DNA from: Tupaia tana
Lineage: Eukaryota > Chordata > Mammalia > Scandentia > Tupaiidae
Assembly (NCBI GenBank): GCA_026018925.1
Contig: JAKSZU010000002.1
Span: forward strand, 93,134,975-93,198,974
Direction: 5' to 3'
Length of the DNA stretch: 64,000 bases
Shown in pieces: positions 22,437 to 60,720 of this stretch; within the stretch, counting starts at the first letter, position 1; the number at the start of each line of letters is the position of its first letter. The notes beneath the pieces are model-generated. The model made no database searches and had not been told where the DNA came from. It saw only the letters and a program-made list of their open reading frames with translations. The position numbers were made by a program, and so were the translations under genes.

Positions 22437-22484
22437 CATTTTTCAGTGAGACATTTCTTGTAATAAAACAGTGTTACAAACCTG

Positions 22485-24571
22485 GGAGTCTGCCATGAGA
22501 GCTGAGATCTAGTGATTTCAGGGATAAGGCAAACAGAAAGGGTAAGCCAGGAGACTGAGTCTGCCATGAGAGCTGAAACCTAGTGATTTCAGAGGTAAGG
22601 CAATAAAGATGTTCTGCTGAGAATTTACCCTGGTAGAGCTCCTGGAGAAAATGCAGCGCCAAAGAGTTTGCAGACCACATTCTCCTGTACACTTCTGATC
22701 GCTCAGATGATCTTCTAGAAATCAGGAAGAAACGGATAACCCATCAGATGACCAGAAATTACCACAGGGGCACAAGAAATATGCGAAACCAAAAAAATAT
22801 CTCATCTCCAAGGGCAAAGAATAACTCCTCTTCATCCACAGACAGTACAATGGAACTCATGGAAATGCCTGATAAAGAATTTAAAGTATTCATAATGACA
22901 AAACTGACAGAGATGGAAGAGAAGAGAGACAATGAACACCAGAAGAAAAAAGTTGATGAGTTCCAGGAGGTGAGGAAGCTCTTGAGAGAGCTGAAAGAGG
23001 AAATACACACCATAAAAAAGAATCAAATGGAACTCTGGGAGATGAAGGCTATAATACAGGAAGTCAAAACATCCTTTGAAAGTACTAAAAGCAGACTAGA
23101 TCACACAGAAAATCGAATCCCAGATGTAGGATTGCTAGACTAGTAAAATCCACCACGAAGACTGAGAAAATAGCCCAAAAAAATGAGAATAATACACGAG
23201 AAATACTAGATACCATTAAATGTCCAAACATCTGGATAATTGGTATCCCAGAAGGTGAAGAGACTAGTAAGGGCATTGACAATCTATTCCATAAAATCCT
23301 GGAAGAAAACTTCCCAAACCTGGAGAGGCATTCAAAGATCCAGACCCAAGAAATACAAAGGACCCCCAAATAGGATCAACCCAAGAAGATTTTCTCCAAG
23401 ACACATTATAGCCAGAATGACCAAAACCACAGACAGACACGATACTCAGACTGGCAAGAGAGAAACGTCAAGTTATCTACAAAGGATATCCCATCAGGCT
23501 AACAGTGGACCTCTCATTGAAAATAATGTGAGCAAGGAAAGAATAGGAAAATATATTCAAAGTGTTGAGTGAAAAACAATTTCAACCAAGAATACTATAT
23601 CTGGCAAGATTATTCTTCAGATGGGAAGAGAAGACGATAACGATCTCAGATAAAACCTGAAAGAATTTACCAACACCAGACCAACTCTCGAGAAGTTCTG
23701 AAAGGAGTGCTATCTCAGGAAAACTAAAGTCAGAAAAACAGAAATAAGAGTTCTAAAACAGCTAAGAAAATGGTCAGCTTAATGGTAGGGACAAGTCCAG
23801 AGTTGAACATTATCTTCCAGAATTTAAAAGGAAAGATCAGACCACAACAGAAGATAAAGTATATGAGTTTGAATGATGAAATAGAATTTTATGACTTTTG
23901 ATTAAAACATTACTGACCTTCTGTGCTTTATTTTCTAGTGTCAAGGAGTTTTGTCTTCTCTCGAGTTGTGGAAAGGTACCTACTATTTGGACAGAATCCT
24001 AACCTGTTTCTTGGCTTTAAATATTAAGCAAAGTTCTCTTAACATTTTTTTATTTTCATTTATTAAAGCTAAAACTGCTTTTCTTAAAATTAAAAAGTGT
24101 ATTTAAAAAATACCTATTTAGTAACCACAGTAAGCTATATAGCCTCAGCTATGTGCTATTTTATAGTATATTCATTCCACCCACAGGGTTTCATGCCTAA
24201 AGTCAACATTTGTTCACAGATATGTATATATCAGCTGAACTTACTATTGAAAGTATTTAGATTAAGATATTTTGTGAATCAATACAACGTGGGAAAGAAT
24301 AAAGGAATGGAAAGCAACTACAGATACCAGAGACGGGGTGGGAGGAGGATGGGAAAGAGCAGAGGGTGAGAAACAGGCGGTGTGTGTGTGTGGGGAATAT
24401 ATATATATATATATGTATGTATATATGAAACAAGAAATGGAAAATTATTTGTTGATGATAACATGTATGATTAAGCCACTCTACAGTGTATTCTGGCTGG
24501 AAAATTGCATTTAGTATGCTGTGGTGATATTCAGTGAAAGTATATAAAATAAATTAGTTGATTAAAAAAAT
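22485..24571 (+). mobile_element. HAL1-like ORF1-only L1-derived element, copy 1
   Basis: A complete 2.09-kb insertion bounded by perfect 15-base target-site duplications AGTGTTACAAACCTG at 22470-22484 and 24572-24586. It holds two tandem 5' units (from about 22487 and 22555), a broken ORF1-like frame starting at 22748, and about 850 bases of 3' UTR ending in a short A-run. No endonuclease or reverse transcriptase coding exists between ORF1 and the tail. It aligns along its whole length with copy 2. Confidence 0.85.
22748..23722 (+). pseudogene. L1 ORF1p-like gene of HAL1-like copy 1, broken
   Basis: Starts MTRNYHRGTRNMRNQ. A polar N terminus and heptad-rich coiled coil (about residues 45-130) are followed by a frameshift near 23125. 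The RRM-like part (IIGIPEGEE-like) and C-terminal domain continue in other frames to about 23722. Confidence 0.85.
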
Positions 24572-24977
24572 AGTGTTACAAACCTGAAACATTAGATTTA
24601 TAAATATATTAAAAAACTTTATACTAGACCCAAATTGTAGCTGTCATGAACCTCCAAAAGCATTTAGGAATTTGCTGTTTCCTCAAGACAAATTTTTATT
24701 ATATCCCATTCAATAGGCACCCCATTCATTGCTTTTACTCTTATATTCCATTGCAAAAAAAAAAAAAATTAAAAACATTGATTTTCCTTTTTGTGCTAAA
24801 CAAACAGAACAAAATACTTTAATTTGTAAAATATATAGTATCATAATATTATCTCTAATAAGAATTTTTGCCTAAGAATAGCTATAAAGAATAAAAAAAG
24901 TTATCATCTTTTGAAATTATTTAAAAAGTATCAGAAAGAATTCATCACTGCTAAATAATCCAGCCTTACAAATTCTT

Positions 24978-25221
24978 TTTTTTTTTAAAGAGATTTTTGC
25001 TATAGGTTCATGTACTCGCCAGAGAGACAGAGAGCAAGATATCAGCCCCCAGGTGTGAGATGGCCACACCACAACTCCTTCACTTCCATTCTCCTCTCAG
25101 GATTTTGGACATGCACACACATGCGGCCAGCATGAGTTTTAAGCCACCAGATCTGGGACTTGAACAGCGGTTGGCCACGTGGGAGTCCAGTGACATAACT
25201 ATTACACCATCTGTTGATCCC
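24978..25221 (-). mobile_element. Type 1 SINE
   Basis: AGATTTTTGCTATAGGTTCA to ACACCATCTGTTGATCCC. Confidence 0.9.
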
Positions 25222-25736
25222 TTCAATGTGTTACTGATATGACTGCTTTCTGGAAAGACTGAAATTAGATGAAACAAACCCTTGAAAATTGAGCTACACC
25301 CAAATGGCCAAATGTAATTAGAATAGTAAGATATTTGGTTGATCCACACCTATACTATAATGAGGGTTAACATACAGATCTCCAACTACAGTTGTCTTTG
25401 GGACCCTTGGAAGTATCTGCTTTGGCCTGAAGATGACATGGGAGCTTCATTCTGGGCTAACACCAGAGATCCTGGTTGCCATTGCAGGGAAAAGAAGGGT
25501 GCTCTAGCCAGATTGGCTGTGTTCCTTTCCTTAGTCTATCGAGAAAGGCTGAAGTGGCTTAACTATTAACCCTGCAATCACAGACCATCAAGGTACTGAC
25601 GAGAAAGAAGGGTACCAGCACTATTTTGTTTTTTTCTGTCAATGTGACTTAAAAACAGGGAAATACTACTTATCAGTTACTATAAATCTGTCTTCAGTGT
25701 TAAAAAATTATGACCATGGCAGTTTCATAAGAAAGT
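25222..25736. other. Unique sequence
   Basis: No gene or repeat I can support. Confidence 0.4.
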
Positions 25737-25739
25737 ATT

Positions 25740-26020
25740 TTATTTTATTTTATTTATTTTGGAGAGGTTTTTGCTATAGGGCACGTGCACTCGCCAGACA
25801 GACAGAGAGAGACATAGAGACAGAAAGCGAGAAATCATCCCCCAGGGGGGATGGTCACGCTGCAATCCCTTCTCCTCCATTCTCCTCTCGGGATCTTGGG
25901 CATGCATGCACACGCACCCAGCTTGAGTTTTAAGCCACTGGGTCCGGGACGCGGGACGCGAACCGCAGTTGACTACGTGGGAGTCCAGTGACATAGCCAT
26001 TATGCTAACTGCTGGTTCCC
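25740..26020 (-). mobile_element. Type 1 SINE
   Basis: Full length; AGAAAGTAT on both sides. A short GACGCGG repeat sits in the B-box region near 25948-25961. Confidence 0.9.
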
Positions 26021-26439
26021 CAGAAAGTATCATTTTATGATTAAAAAAAAAATTACTTTTATTCTCCCTTAACCAGGTTACCAAAAAATAAGTTCCAATG
26101 CTGTACATGATAGGAAATAACAGTGATTTCCAAACTTTCTGTTTTATAGGGCTTTCTATTAATGTTAAAAAACAATTACTAGTCTGCTCCATGGCTCCTG
26201 AGATCTAGCCATTTTGGGAGAAAGGAAGATGTCCCAATGCTAACTGGGCCTCCAGCATACAAAACCCGCGTGAACAGCCCTTCTTCAAGAGACAGTCTGC
26301 TCCATGGCTCCTGAGATCTAGCCATTTTAGGAGAAAGGAAGATGTCCCAATGCTAACTGGGCCTCCAGCATACAAAACCCGCATGGTAGGAAAAACCCCT
26401 TTCAAGTCTCCTGTCTCTGAGTCAATCTTTGTCTCTCTC

Positions 26440-26474
<35 letters not shown>

Positions 26475-26866
26475 TTTTTTTAATTTTTGCTTTTTAGAAT
26501 TTTTTAAGGTGAGGTGTTTTACAGGGCCCTTTGGCCCCTCCCTCCTAGGCCTTTATTTTGTTAATAATCCCCTCTCCTCCTCCCAGAACAGCCCTTCTTC
26601 AAGAGACAGTCTGCTCCATGGCTCCTGAGATTTAGCCATTTCGCGTGGTGCACGGTTTTCTAATTTTTGATTTTTACTGAAATTTTTTGAATATTAATTT
26701 TTCTTTTTTAGATTTATTCAAAAGTTTTTCTCTTCCTTTTCTCTGTTTCTTGTCTGTTTTTTTTCCTGTTATTGGTATTGTTTCCCTCTCTCTGCTTCCT
26801 TTTCTGCACACTTCCCGACCCTCATATTGAACTTCAAAGTTTGGGAAGAACCCGACCATCCACCAG

Positions 26867-28137
26867 ATGACTAGAAATCGCTGCAGGACCACAAGAAATA
26901 TGGAGAAGCAGGAAAATGCCTCTCCTCCAAGGGAAACGGATAGCTCCTCTTCATCCACACACAGTTCAAGAGAATTCATGGAAATGTCTGATAAAGAATT
27001 CAGAACACTCATAATGGCAAAGCTAACAGAGATGGAAGAGAAGAGAGACAAGGAACTGCTGAAGAGGAAGGAGAAAGGAGTTGAAGAGTTCCAGGAGCTG
27101 AGGAAATTCATGCAAGATCTAAAAGAGGAGTTTCACACTTTACAAAAGAATCAGATGGAACTGTTAGAGATGAAGGCTATAATACAAGAAGTCAAAATCT
27201 CTCTTGAAAGTATTAAAAGCAGACTAGATCATACAGAAAATCGAATCTCTAATGTAGAAGAGAAAATGGCTGGCCTAGAAAAATCCACCATAAAGACTGA
27301 GAAAATGGCCCAAAAATTTGAGAATAATATGCGAGAATTACTAGATACAATTAAACGTCCAAACATCCAGATAATAGGCATCCCAGAGGGTGAAGAGACT
27401 CATAAGGGCATTGACAATCTATTCCATGAAATCCTGCAAGAAAACTTTCCAAACCTGGAGAGGCACTCAAAGATTCAGTCCCAAGAAATACAGAGGACCC
27501 CAAATAGAATCAACCCAAGAAGATCTTCTCCAAGACACATTATAGCCAGATTGACCAAAACCACAGACAAAGACAAGATACTAAGACTGGCAAGAGAAAA
27601 AAGGCAAGTTACCTACAAAGGCTATCCCATCAGACTAACGGCAGACCTCTCATTGGAAACAATGCGAGCGAGGAGAGAATGGGAAAATATATTCAAATTA
27701 TTAAGGGAAAAGCAATTTCAACCGAGAATTCTGAACCAAGAAAGGTTATCGTTCATTTGGGAAGAAAAGACACAAACTTTCCCAGATAAACAAAACCTGA
27801 AAGAATTTACCAGCACCAGACCAGATCTCCAAGAAATTCTTAAGGGATGGGAACCAGCAGTTAGCGTAATGGCTATGTCGCTGGACTCCCACGTAGTCGA
27901 CCGCGGTTCGCGTCCCGGACCCGGTGGCTTAAAACTCACGCCGGGCGCGTGTGCGTGCGTGCCCAAGATCCCGAGAGGAGAATGGAGGAGAAGGGATTGC
28001 GGCGTGACCGTCCCCCCTGGGGGGTGATTTCTCGCTTTCTATCTCGCTGTCTCTCTCTGTCTGTCTGGCGAGCGTACACGCCCTATAGTGAAAAATCTCT
28101 CAAAAAAAAAAAAAATTCTTAAGGGAGTCCTATGTCA
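26867..28137 (+). CDS. L1 ORF1p-like protein of HAL1-like copy 2, interrupted by a SINE
   Basis: Nucleic-acid-binding chaperone of the L1 ORF1p family. About 327 codons read openly to 27847; after the SINE the frame would resume and stop at TAA within four codons (VLCQ*), giving about 332 residues without the insertion, near the usual L1 ORF1p length. Visible: serine-rich N terminus (residues 20-35), coiled coil with KLTEMEEKRDKEL (about 47-150), RRM-like block PNIQIIGIPEGEE (about 165-177), and C-terminal block RHIIARLTKTTDKDKILRLA onward. The continuing open frame into the SINE (to 28027) is an insertion artefact. Confidence 0.8.
27848..28112 (+). mobile_element. Type 1 SINE inside HAL1-like ORF1
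   Basis: Full length, A-tailed; 14-base duplications AAATTCTTAAGGGA at 27834-27847 and 28113-28126. It dates SINE activity after the HAL1-like insertion. Confidence 0.95.
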
Positions 28138-29339
28138 GTAAAATTAAATGCAGACACATAAAAATAAGAGTTCAAAAACCAAGAAAATGGGCAACTTAAT
28201 TGTAGGGACAATGTTTGGAGATGAATATTATATCCCAGAATTCAATCTGGAAGATCGAACCTTAACAGAAGAAATATTAAGTACATGAGACAACCGATGA
28301 AACAACATTCTGTGACTTGACTAAATTATTGCTGCCTTTCTCTTAAGCTTTGTTTTCCGGTTTTAAAGGATTTTTGTCCTGTCTTGAGCTGTTGATAGGT
28401 GCATGTACCTACTATTTGAACAGAATACTAACCTGTTTCTAGGCTTTAAGTTTCAAGGAAATATCATTACCAGTTCAAAACTACTCTTCTTGAAATTACC
28501 TGCTGAAAGTAGTTAGATTACTTATGATATTGTGTGGCCAACAAAATGTTGGGGAAAAAGGAATGGAAGACAACTGTATATAGCAGAGATAGTGTAATAA
28601 GAGAGTGGGAAAGGGCAGAGGGTCCTTTCATGGGGTAAAAAACATATATATACATATACATATGTATGAAAGTAGAAATGGAATATTATTGATGATAACA
28701 TGCTTGATTAAGCCACTATGCAGTTTATTCTAGATGGGAAACCACATTTAGTATGTTGTGATGATGCTCAGGGAATGAATGTTAAGTAATTTAAAAAAAA
28801 AAGTTGCAGGAGAAAAAAAACAGTAAAACTGTTAGTATCGAAATTTTTTTAAAAATGCATATTTGATGACTACAGTAAGCTATATAGCCCCAGCTGGGTA
28901 CTACTTTATAATATGTTCATTCTACTCACTGGGGTTTATGCCTAAAGTCAGACTTGGGTTCATGTATAGGTATATATCAGCTGTGCTAGCTATTGGATAT
29001 ATTTAGACTAATTAAGTTCATTAGTAAATCAACTAAATGGGGGAGGGAAGGCATAGAAAGCAACCGTGGATACCAGAGACAATGTGGGAGGAGGGTGGGA
29101 CATGGCAGAGGGTGAGGGATAAGGAATCAAGGATGGCAAAACAAAAAACAAAGTATACAAGACATAAGAATTGGAAAATTATTTGCTGAAAACATGTATG
29201 TTGATGTGCTTGATTGAGCCAATACACAGTGTATTTTGGATGGAAAAAAAAAAAAAACACAATTACTACTGATGATTGCTTAAAGAATTACAGAAATCTT
29301 GGAAGTTTCACCCTACACACTATATTCCAATATTGGAAA

Positions 29340-30073: not shown

Positions 30074-60720
<30,647 letters not shown>

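Follow-up and report, generated by a model that had tools for sequence, protein, structure and literature searches.

The closest described systems to the elements reported here are the HAL1 (half-L1) elements of mammals. As two accounts characterize them, HAL1 elements encode only the protein (ORF1p) of the first open reading frame (ORF1) of L1, carry a poly(A) tail and target-site duplications (TSDs), and are taken to depend on the reverse transcriptase and endonuclease of L1; they number about 2,100 copies in human and have had several origins in mammals (PMC5322556, PMC5753468). Further papers record that guinea pig HAL1 ORF1 kept its coding capacity for ~29-44 million years (Myr) (PMC3627910, citing Bao & Jurka 2010), that HAL1 activity is reported in rat (PMC8535693), and that HAL1 families less than 1% divergent have 37-106 copies each in guinea pig and 32 in marmoset (PMC3183009, section 9). 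Here we analyze two insertions, copy 1 and copy 2, in a 64,000-nucleotide (nt) stretch of the Tupaia tana genome (assembly GCA_026018925.1, contig JAKSZU010000002.1, positions 93,134,975 to 93,198,974, forward strand), which we call the window and whose coordinates we use unless another contig is named. We consider it very probable that both are complete insertions of HAL1 type, that is, of an L1 derivative with its own 5' units, ORF1 and 3' untranslated region (UTR), which goes back to a single ancestral loss of ORF2 and which would use its ORF1p in cis and the ORF2 protein (ORF2p) in trans. An earlier note on this DNA had proposed a HAL1-like class for them; that assignment is supported, and ORF1-only elements are known in mammals.

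Two ORF1-only insertions and their ORF2 vestige

Read base by base, copies 1 and 2 have a common plan of tandem 5' units, ORF1, an A-rich 3' end and a TSD of their own (see the table). The earlier note had placed two ORF1-only insertions here on one plan, with TSDs of 15 and 10 nt, and its coordinates proved exact to the base. In copy 1, the two 5' units (22486-22532 and 22557-22603) are 91% identical over 47 nt with a period of 71 nt; in copy 2, the first two are 98% alike over 92 nt with a period of 113 nt, and a third is partial. Between the two copies the units are also related, with an alignment score of 37 that was reached by 0 of 1000 shuffles. The copies are 82% identical in and around ORF1 and 71-76% identical across pieces of the 3' UTR, implying that they did not arise by local duplication and bearing out the proposal that they represent a diverged lineage. 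In the 3' UTR of copy 2, a block at about 28491-28793 resembles a second one at 28847-29247 (73% identity over 86 nt and 80% over 41 nt), and that of copy 1 corresponds to one block. For this two-block 3' UTR of the copy-2 subfamily, either state could be ancestral, the difference being due to duplication or to loss.

The ORF1 of copy 2 carries the domains PF02994 (E = 1.1e-31) and PF17490 (E = 1.5e-19), and human L1 ORF1p (PDB 2ykp) matches its residues 114-326 (E = 2.2e-60); further L1 ORF1p structures named were 2ykq and 2yko. A chain of L1TD1 (2lr6, 3soo) matches residues 252-326; L1TD1 is a domesticated gene, unlike a mobile family, according to PMC4161310. As had been noted, the frame remains open for 327 codons until it is interrupted by a short interspersed element (SINE), which has its own 13-nt duplication; SINE-free, undisrupted relatives stop at codon 331. 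The earlier note had also proposed comparing ORF1 with the L1 families of the host: the ORF1 proteins of two host L1 lineages, A (L069/L070) and B (L072/L071), are 64% and 69% identical to that of copy 2. Relative to one locus of each lineage (L069, L072), the coiled coil of the copy 2 ORF1 (26867-27847) is longer by an insertion of 11 residues.

We searched the genome assembly that contains the window (2.95 Gb, 1198 contigs); the searches scored the best 40, 122 or 150 candidates, and the loci fetched were best-scoring or picked copies. In all 36 other fetched loci (7 relatives of copy 1 and 29 of copy 2), ORF1 led directly into a 3' UTR of the identical type, although in one (L014) only the first 386 nt of the 3' UTR matched. 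The query for copy 1 included the 3' UTR, whereas that for copy 2 lacked it, so for the 29 copy-2 relatives the query did not predetermine this outcome. ORF1 was likewise followed directly by the 3' UTR in four of four hand-picked stretches of a third subfamily, c3, described below (c1 and c2 denote the subfamilies of copies 1 and 2). Copies with the same ends and a full ORF2 between them, the finding that would have pointed to independent deletions, were sought, and none occurred among these 36 loci and four stretches. A junction-spanning query, which by its nature favors such matches, was matched from base 1 onward by 37 of the 40 candidates scored, the window copy included.

Between ORF1 and the 3' end, neither window copy contains ORF2, save a short vestige of its start. 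The elements align with the host L1s L069 and L072 through the end of ORF1, the spacer and, depending on the pair, 24-70 nt past the ORF2 start codon (24-59 nt in copy 1, where the end of the L1 homology is not sharp). In eight of eight comparisons, of four c1, c2 and c3 copies with two host L1s, the alignment at the ORF2 start exceeded all 500 shuffles. The resulting scar is common to c1, c2 and c3: it comprises the ORF1-ORF2 spacer and about 8-23 codons from the beginning of ORF2, and the 3' UTR comes next. Because the three subfamilies are alike on either side of one junction, ORF2 would most simply have been lost once, before they split. The earlier contention that these are not L1s that later lost ORF2 is correct for each insertion; the lineage as a whole does descend from such a loss. 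Host L1 lineages A and B resemble the elements in the order of ORF1, spacer and ORF2 start, but in them a full ORF2 follows and the 3' ends differ. The 3' UTR found in the elements matched the 3' end of neither host L1 compared, one A-type and one B-type, and its source was not found in that comparison.

These observations bear directly on the idea that ordinary L1s each lost ORF2 at or after insertion, by independent internal deletions or through spliced L1 RNA. As this idea would have it, a bicistronic L1 is the ancestor of the elements and a vestige of ORF2 persists in them, but the junction is the same in c1, c2 and c3 copies and in every fetched locus, and the 3' UTR is unlike either L1 3' end compared. 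Independent deletion or splicing appears to be largely refuted by the common junction, and we regard it as scarcely credible.

Subfamilies, youth and constraint on ORF1

An ORF1 23-mer had 3682 exact matches in the genome and a copy-2 junction 24-mer had 839, with 0 for each of the reversed-pattern controls. Of 20 junction matches on contig C111, 11 had one of the 86 listed 23-mer matches ~250 nt away. An ORF2-bearing relative was considered as the source of the 23-mer surplus (3682 vs 839) and rejected: four of four hand-picked places on C111 that lacked the junction belonged to the third HAL subfamily, c3 (L073-L076), which is ~82% identical to the family of copy 2 over 174 nt. The four c3 stretches differ mutually by 1-11 of 271 nt. 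In a genome search with one of these stretches, all 40 scored places, the best 40 of 830 first-look candidates, were 100% identical over 271 nt; they include the query's own locus and are spread over 16 contigs. A 102-mer from that c3 stretch had 291 exact matches and the homologous 102-mer of one L1-A copy had 173, but both probes come from single copies and so give no fair count of either family. With the C-terminal peptide of c3, an open frame of at least 330 amino acids was present in 73 of 150 scored places, these being score ties drawn from low-numbered contigs only. Places with a c2-type ORF1 were free of stops in 84 of 122 scored cases, the window copy included, and a full-length ORF1 was kept in 11 of 29 copy-2 relatives and in 0 of 8 copy-1-type loci.

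Mean pairwise distances at non-CpG sites in the copy-2 group were 2.2% for ORF1 (30 copies) and 3.6% for the 3' UTR (29 of the 30 copies); in the copy-1 group (8 copies) they were 8.6% and 11.1%. Because the copies were picked by similarity, these distances lean young. With an assumed substitution rate of 2.2e-9 per site per year, they would correspond very roughly to ages of ~5-8 Myr for the copy-2 group and ~20-25 Myr for the copy-1 group. By these measures copy 1 is placed in an old subfamily and copy 2 in a younger one; c3, with its identical copies, is very young. The earlier suggestion of recent activity fits the family, given the 40 identical c3 places, but not the old subfamily of copy 1. 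The family, both old and large, is apparently still spreading.

To describe constraint on ORF1, we calculated nonsynonymous (dN) and synonymous (dS) divergence from Nei-Gojobori counts with gapped codons dropped; net values have the within-group divergence subtracted. Between the c1 and c2 groups (8 c1 loci and 15 of the 30 c2 loci), net dS was 0.26 and net dN 0.068, giving a ratio of 0.26 for which 60 codon bootstraps spanned 0.18-0.39. The two wrong frames gave 1.13 and 1.55, and the right frame gave 0.25 with all 30 c2 loci. By part of ORF1, the ratio was 0.41 in the coiled coil and 0.12 in the RNA recognition motif (RRM) and C-terminal part. The values suggest, most simply, that ORF1 was under purifying selection following the loss of ORF2: because that loss predates the c1/c2 split, selection would have acted on ORF1 in its ORF2-less form.

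Table. Features of the two insertions, in window coordinates
Feature	Position	Strand	Remarks
Copy 1, complete ORF1-only L1-derived insertion	22485-24571	+	
Copy 1 TSD, perfect, 15 nt, AGTGTTACAAACCTG	5' 22470-22484; 3' 24572-24586	+	mismatched-flank control
Copy 1, two tandem 5' units	22485-22603	+	related to the units of copy 2
Copy 1, L1 ORF1-type gene	22748-23727	+	disrupted by frameshifts and stops
Copy 1, inter-ORF spacer and vestige of ORF2 start	23728-23829	+	ATG at 23770
Copy 1, 3' UTR and A-rich end	23830-24571	+	
Copy 2, complete ORF1-only L1-derived insertion	26182-29258	+	
Copy 2 TSD, 10 nt, ACAATTACTA	5' 26172-26181; 3' 29259-29268	+	exact repeat; TTAAAA site adjoining
Copy 2, 113-nt 5' units	26182-26641	+	26182-26293; 26294-26385 matching; third, partial, to 26641
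Copy 2, ORF1 with L1 RRM-like and C-terminal domains	26867-27847	+	327 open codons
SINE within copy 2 ORF1	27847-28112	+	13-nt duplication AAATTCTTAAGGG at 27834-27846 and 28113-28125
Copy 2, ORF1 stop, inter-ORF spacer and vestige of ORF2 start	28139-28246	+	stop 28139-28141; ATG 28187; homology end not sharp
Copy 2, 3' UTR ending in A-run	28247-29258	+	two related blocks

The SINE family is dense throughout the window and tRNA-like by eye, with many copies at most 94% identical to the SINE inside copy 2. At 54147-54506, a 180-nt unit stands twice in tandem (2.0 copies) with a 100% match, a duplication that is either recent or an assembly artifact. Gene pieces in the window resemble MTO1 and EEF1A1, which, with the SINE-rich sequence, fits a placental mammal.

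Mode of movement and its alternatives

Of 38 family loci, window copies counted, 15 had an exact TSD 12 nt or longer, compared with 4 of 1406 mismatched-flank control pairings; a simple search detected none of this length in the other 23. The 10-nt TSD of copy 2 is weak alone (50 of the 1406 controls reach 10 nt), but it adjoins both ends of the insertion exactly. Across 16 TSDs, the first base was A in 15, the second a purine in 14, the third A in 13 and the fourth A in 13. Such an A-rich start is expected of the L1 endonuclease. A genome search with RVT_1 placed 150 of 150 scored places above the cutoff, many with frames of at least 1290 amino acids, and on this evidence the genome carries L1s with an intact ORF2. 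In viral contigs, none of 9 pattern matches to the element was confirmed as a relative.

Among the sibling loci (L001-L038), element starts cluster near positions 1, 20 and 88-95 of the 113-nt 5' unit, as would be expected if the tandem units were promoters with several start sites. A single fixed transcription start for both copies is weakened by this spread. Extra 5' units are present in L018, L028 and L037. At the other end, the TSD stands directly at the matched end of the 3' UTR in copy 2 (L009; 29240-29258), L012 and L019, and 11 long-TSD siblings extend 67-95 nt further, A-tail included, so that the family perhaps has two alternative 3' ends.

We propose that RNA would be made from the tandem 5' units, acting as a putative promoter, and that ORF1p translated from this RNA would coat the same RNA in cis. 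The ORF2p of intact host L1s, an endonuclease and reverse transcriptase, would then act in trans, nicking the target, priming on the A-tail and copying the element RNA into it. ORF1p in cis with ORF2p in trans is the best-supported mechanism, its trans half drawing on general knowledge; mobilization by L1 ORF2p is presumed, and likely, and intact L1 ORF2s are present in this genome.

ORF1p could instead be dispensable, with the RNA moved wholly in trans, like that of a SINE, and the open frames a mere sign of youth. The L1 machinery does mobilize SINE RNAs without ORF1, and young copies keep open frames without selection, but we find this account improbable given the net dN/dS of 0.26 between c1 and c2 (0.12 in the RNA-binding half and above 1 in the wrong frames) and an ORF2 loss that predates their split. 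Another possibility is an unseen L1 lineage that shares this 3' UTR: selection would have acted there, and the ORF1-only form would have been regenerated from it. Such a lineage gains some room from the facts that one A-type and one B-type L1 were compared at ORF1 and the 3' end and that the searches score the best candidates. Against it, the scar common to c1, c2 and c3 indicates that a single loss preceded their split, and the four 23-mer places picked for lacking the c2 junction all proved to be HAL. In addition, RVT_1 lay 0.5-5 kb downstream of 0 of 89 places matched by the c3 probe and of 10 of 38 matched by the homologous L1-A probe, among the places listed on 11 contigs. This control used 89 of 100 listed c3 places (291 in total), 38 of 100 listed L1-A places (173 in total) and 57 of 150 listed RVT_1 places, and it is weak for an old L1 because the listed RVT_1 places favor the youngest L1s. 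Taken with the scar, it leaves regeneration from an unseen L1 very improbable in our judgment.

Several points nevertheless weigh against a HAL1-type lineage that supplies its own ORF1p in cis and is mobile today. The promoter role of the 5' units, the cis action of ORF1p, the supply of ORF2p in trans and activity today are parts of the account that we infer, cis action and present-day movement above all. The N-terminal part of ORF1, with a net dN/dS of 0.89, is under little constraint. Within groups, the ratio in the right frame was 0.50 and 0.48 and in the wrong frames 0.61-0.74; wrong-frame values below 1 imply that the method is biased low for young copies, a bias from which the net ratios are free. 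The A-rich start of the TSDs is partly favored by picking the longest repeat next to the A-tail. Because only the best candidates were scored, an ORF2-bearing relative with the same ends could exist. Finally, the c3 sequence read comprises four stretches of 271 nt and a further 66 nt, with the 5' end and TSDs of c3 lying outside, and some identical c3 copies are close together (C275:39654830 and 39657890, with a further pair on each of C220 and C308) and may have arisen by local or segmental duplication.

A broader proposal seems to us evenly poised between being right and wrong. It holds that an ORF1-only lineage split from autonomous L1 before the subfamilies parted and has remained coding and mobile for tens of Myr by using ORF1p in cis and stealing only ORF2p, so that it would be a stable divided system and not a dead end. 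It may now spread as well as L1, a suggestion made because of the 291 exact matches of the single-copy c3 probe against 173 for that of L1-A.

Place among known HAL1 elements

The elements have an L1-type ORF1, lack ORF2 (36 of 36 fetched loci and four of four c3 stretches) and derive from a bicistronic L1; with an A-tail and TSDs, they move as finished units, as HAL1 elements do. The ORF2 with endonuclease and reverse transcriptase that distinguishes an autonomous L1 was absent from the loci examined, and these loci displayed neither the copy-specific junction expected of an independently deleted or spliced L1 nor the 3' UTR of the one A-type or the one B-type L1 compared.

Why ORF1 is retained without ORF2 is directly relevant to cis action, in which ORF1p would serve the RNA that encodes it. 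With its intact L1 ORF2s, its thousands of exact matches to HAL ORF1 and a very young subfamily whose ORF1 frames are open, this genome offers a natural setting in which to test such action, and the same host suits the study of competition between L1 and L1's own derivative.

We found no paper on HAL1 attributable to this genome in the part of the literature covered, and nothing on ORF1-only elements in the available part of PMC13174262. The guinea pig HAL1-1H_Cpo and marmoset HAL1-1C_Cja are likewise ORF1-only and L1-derived, have an A-tail and TSDs, and likely depend on L1 ORF2p; they are likened to the present elements by description. The exact-match counts obtained here (3682 ORF1 23-mers and 291 junction 102-mers) differ in kind from the 32-106 copies given for each young family in PMC3183009, and the comparison is only suggestive. 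Overall, the HAL1 kind is already known, young members included, and the present lineage, which may be a new member, extends a known phenomenon to another mammal. What it adds is a host with numerous, very young HAL elements, a clear ORF2 scar and measured constraint on ORF1.

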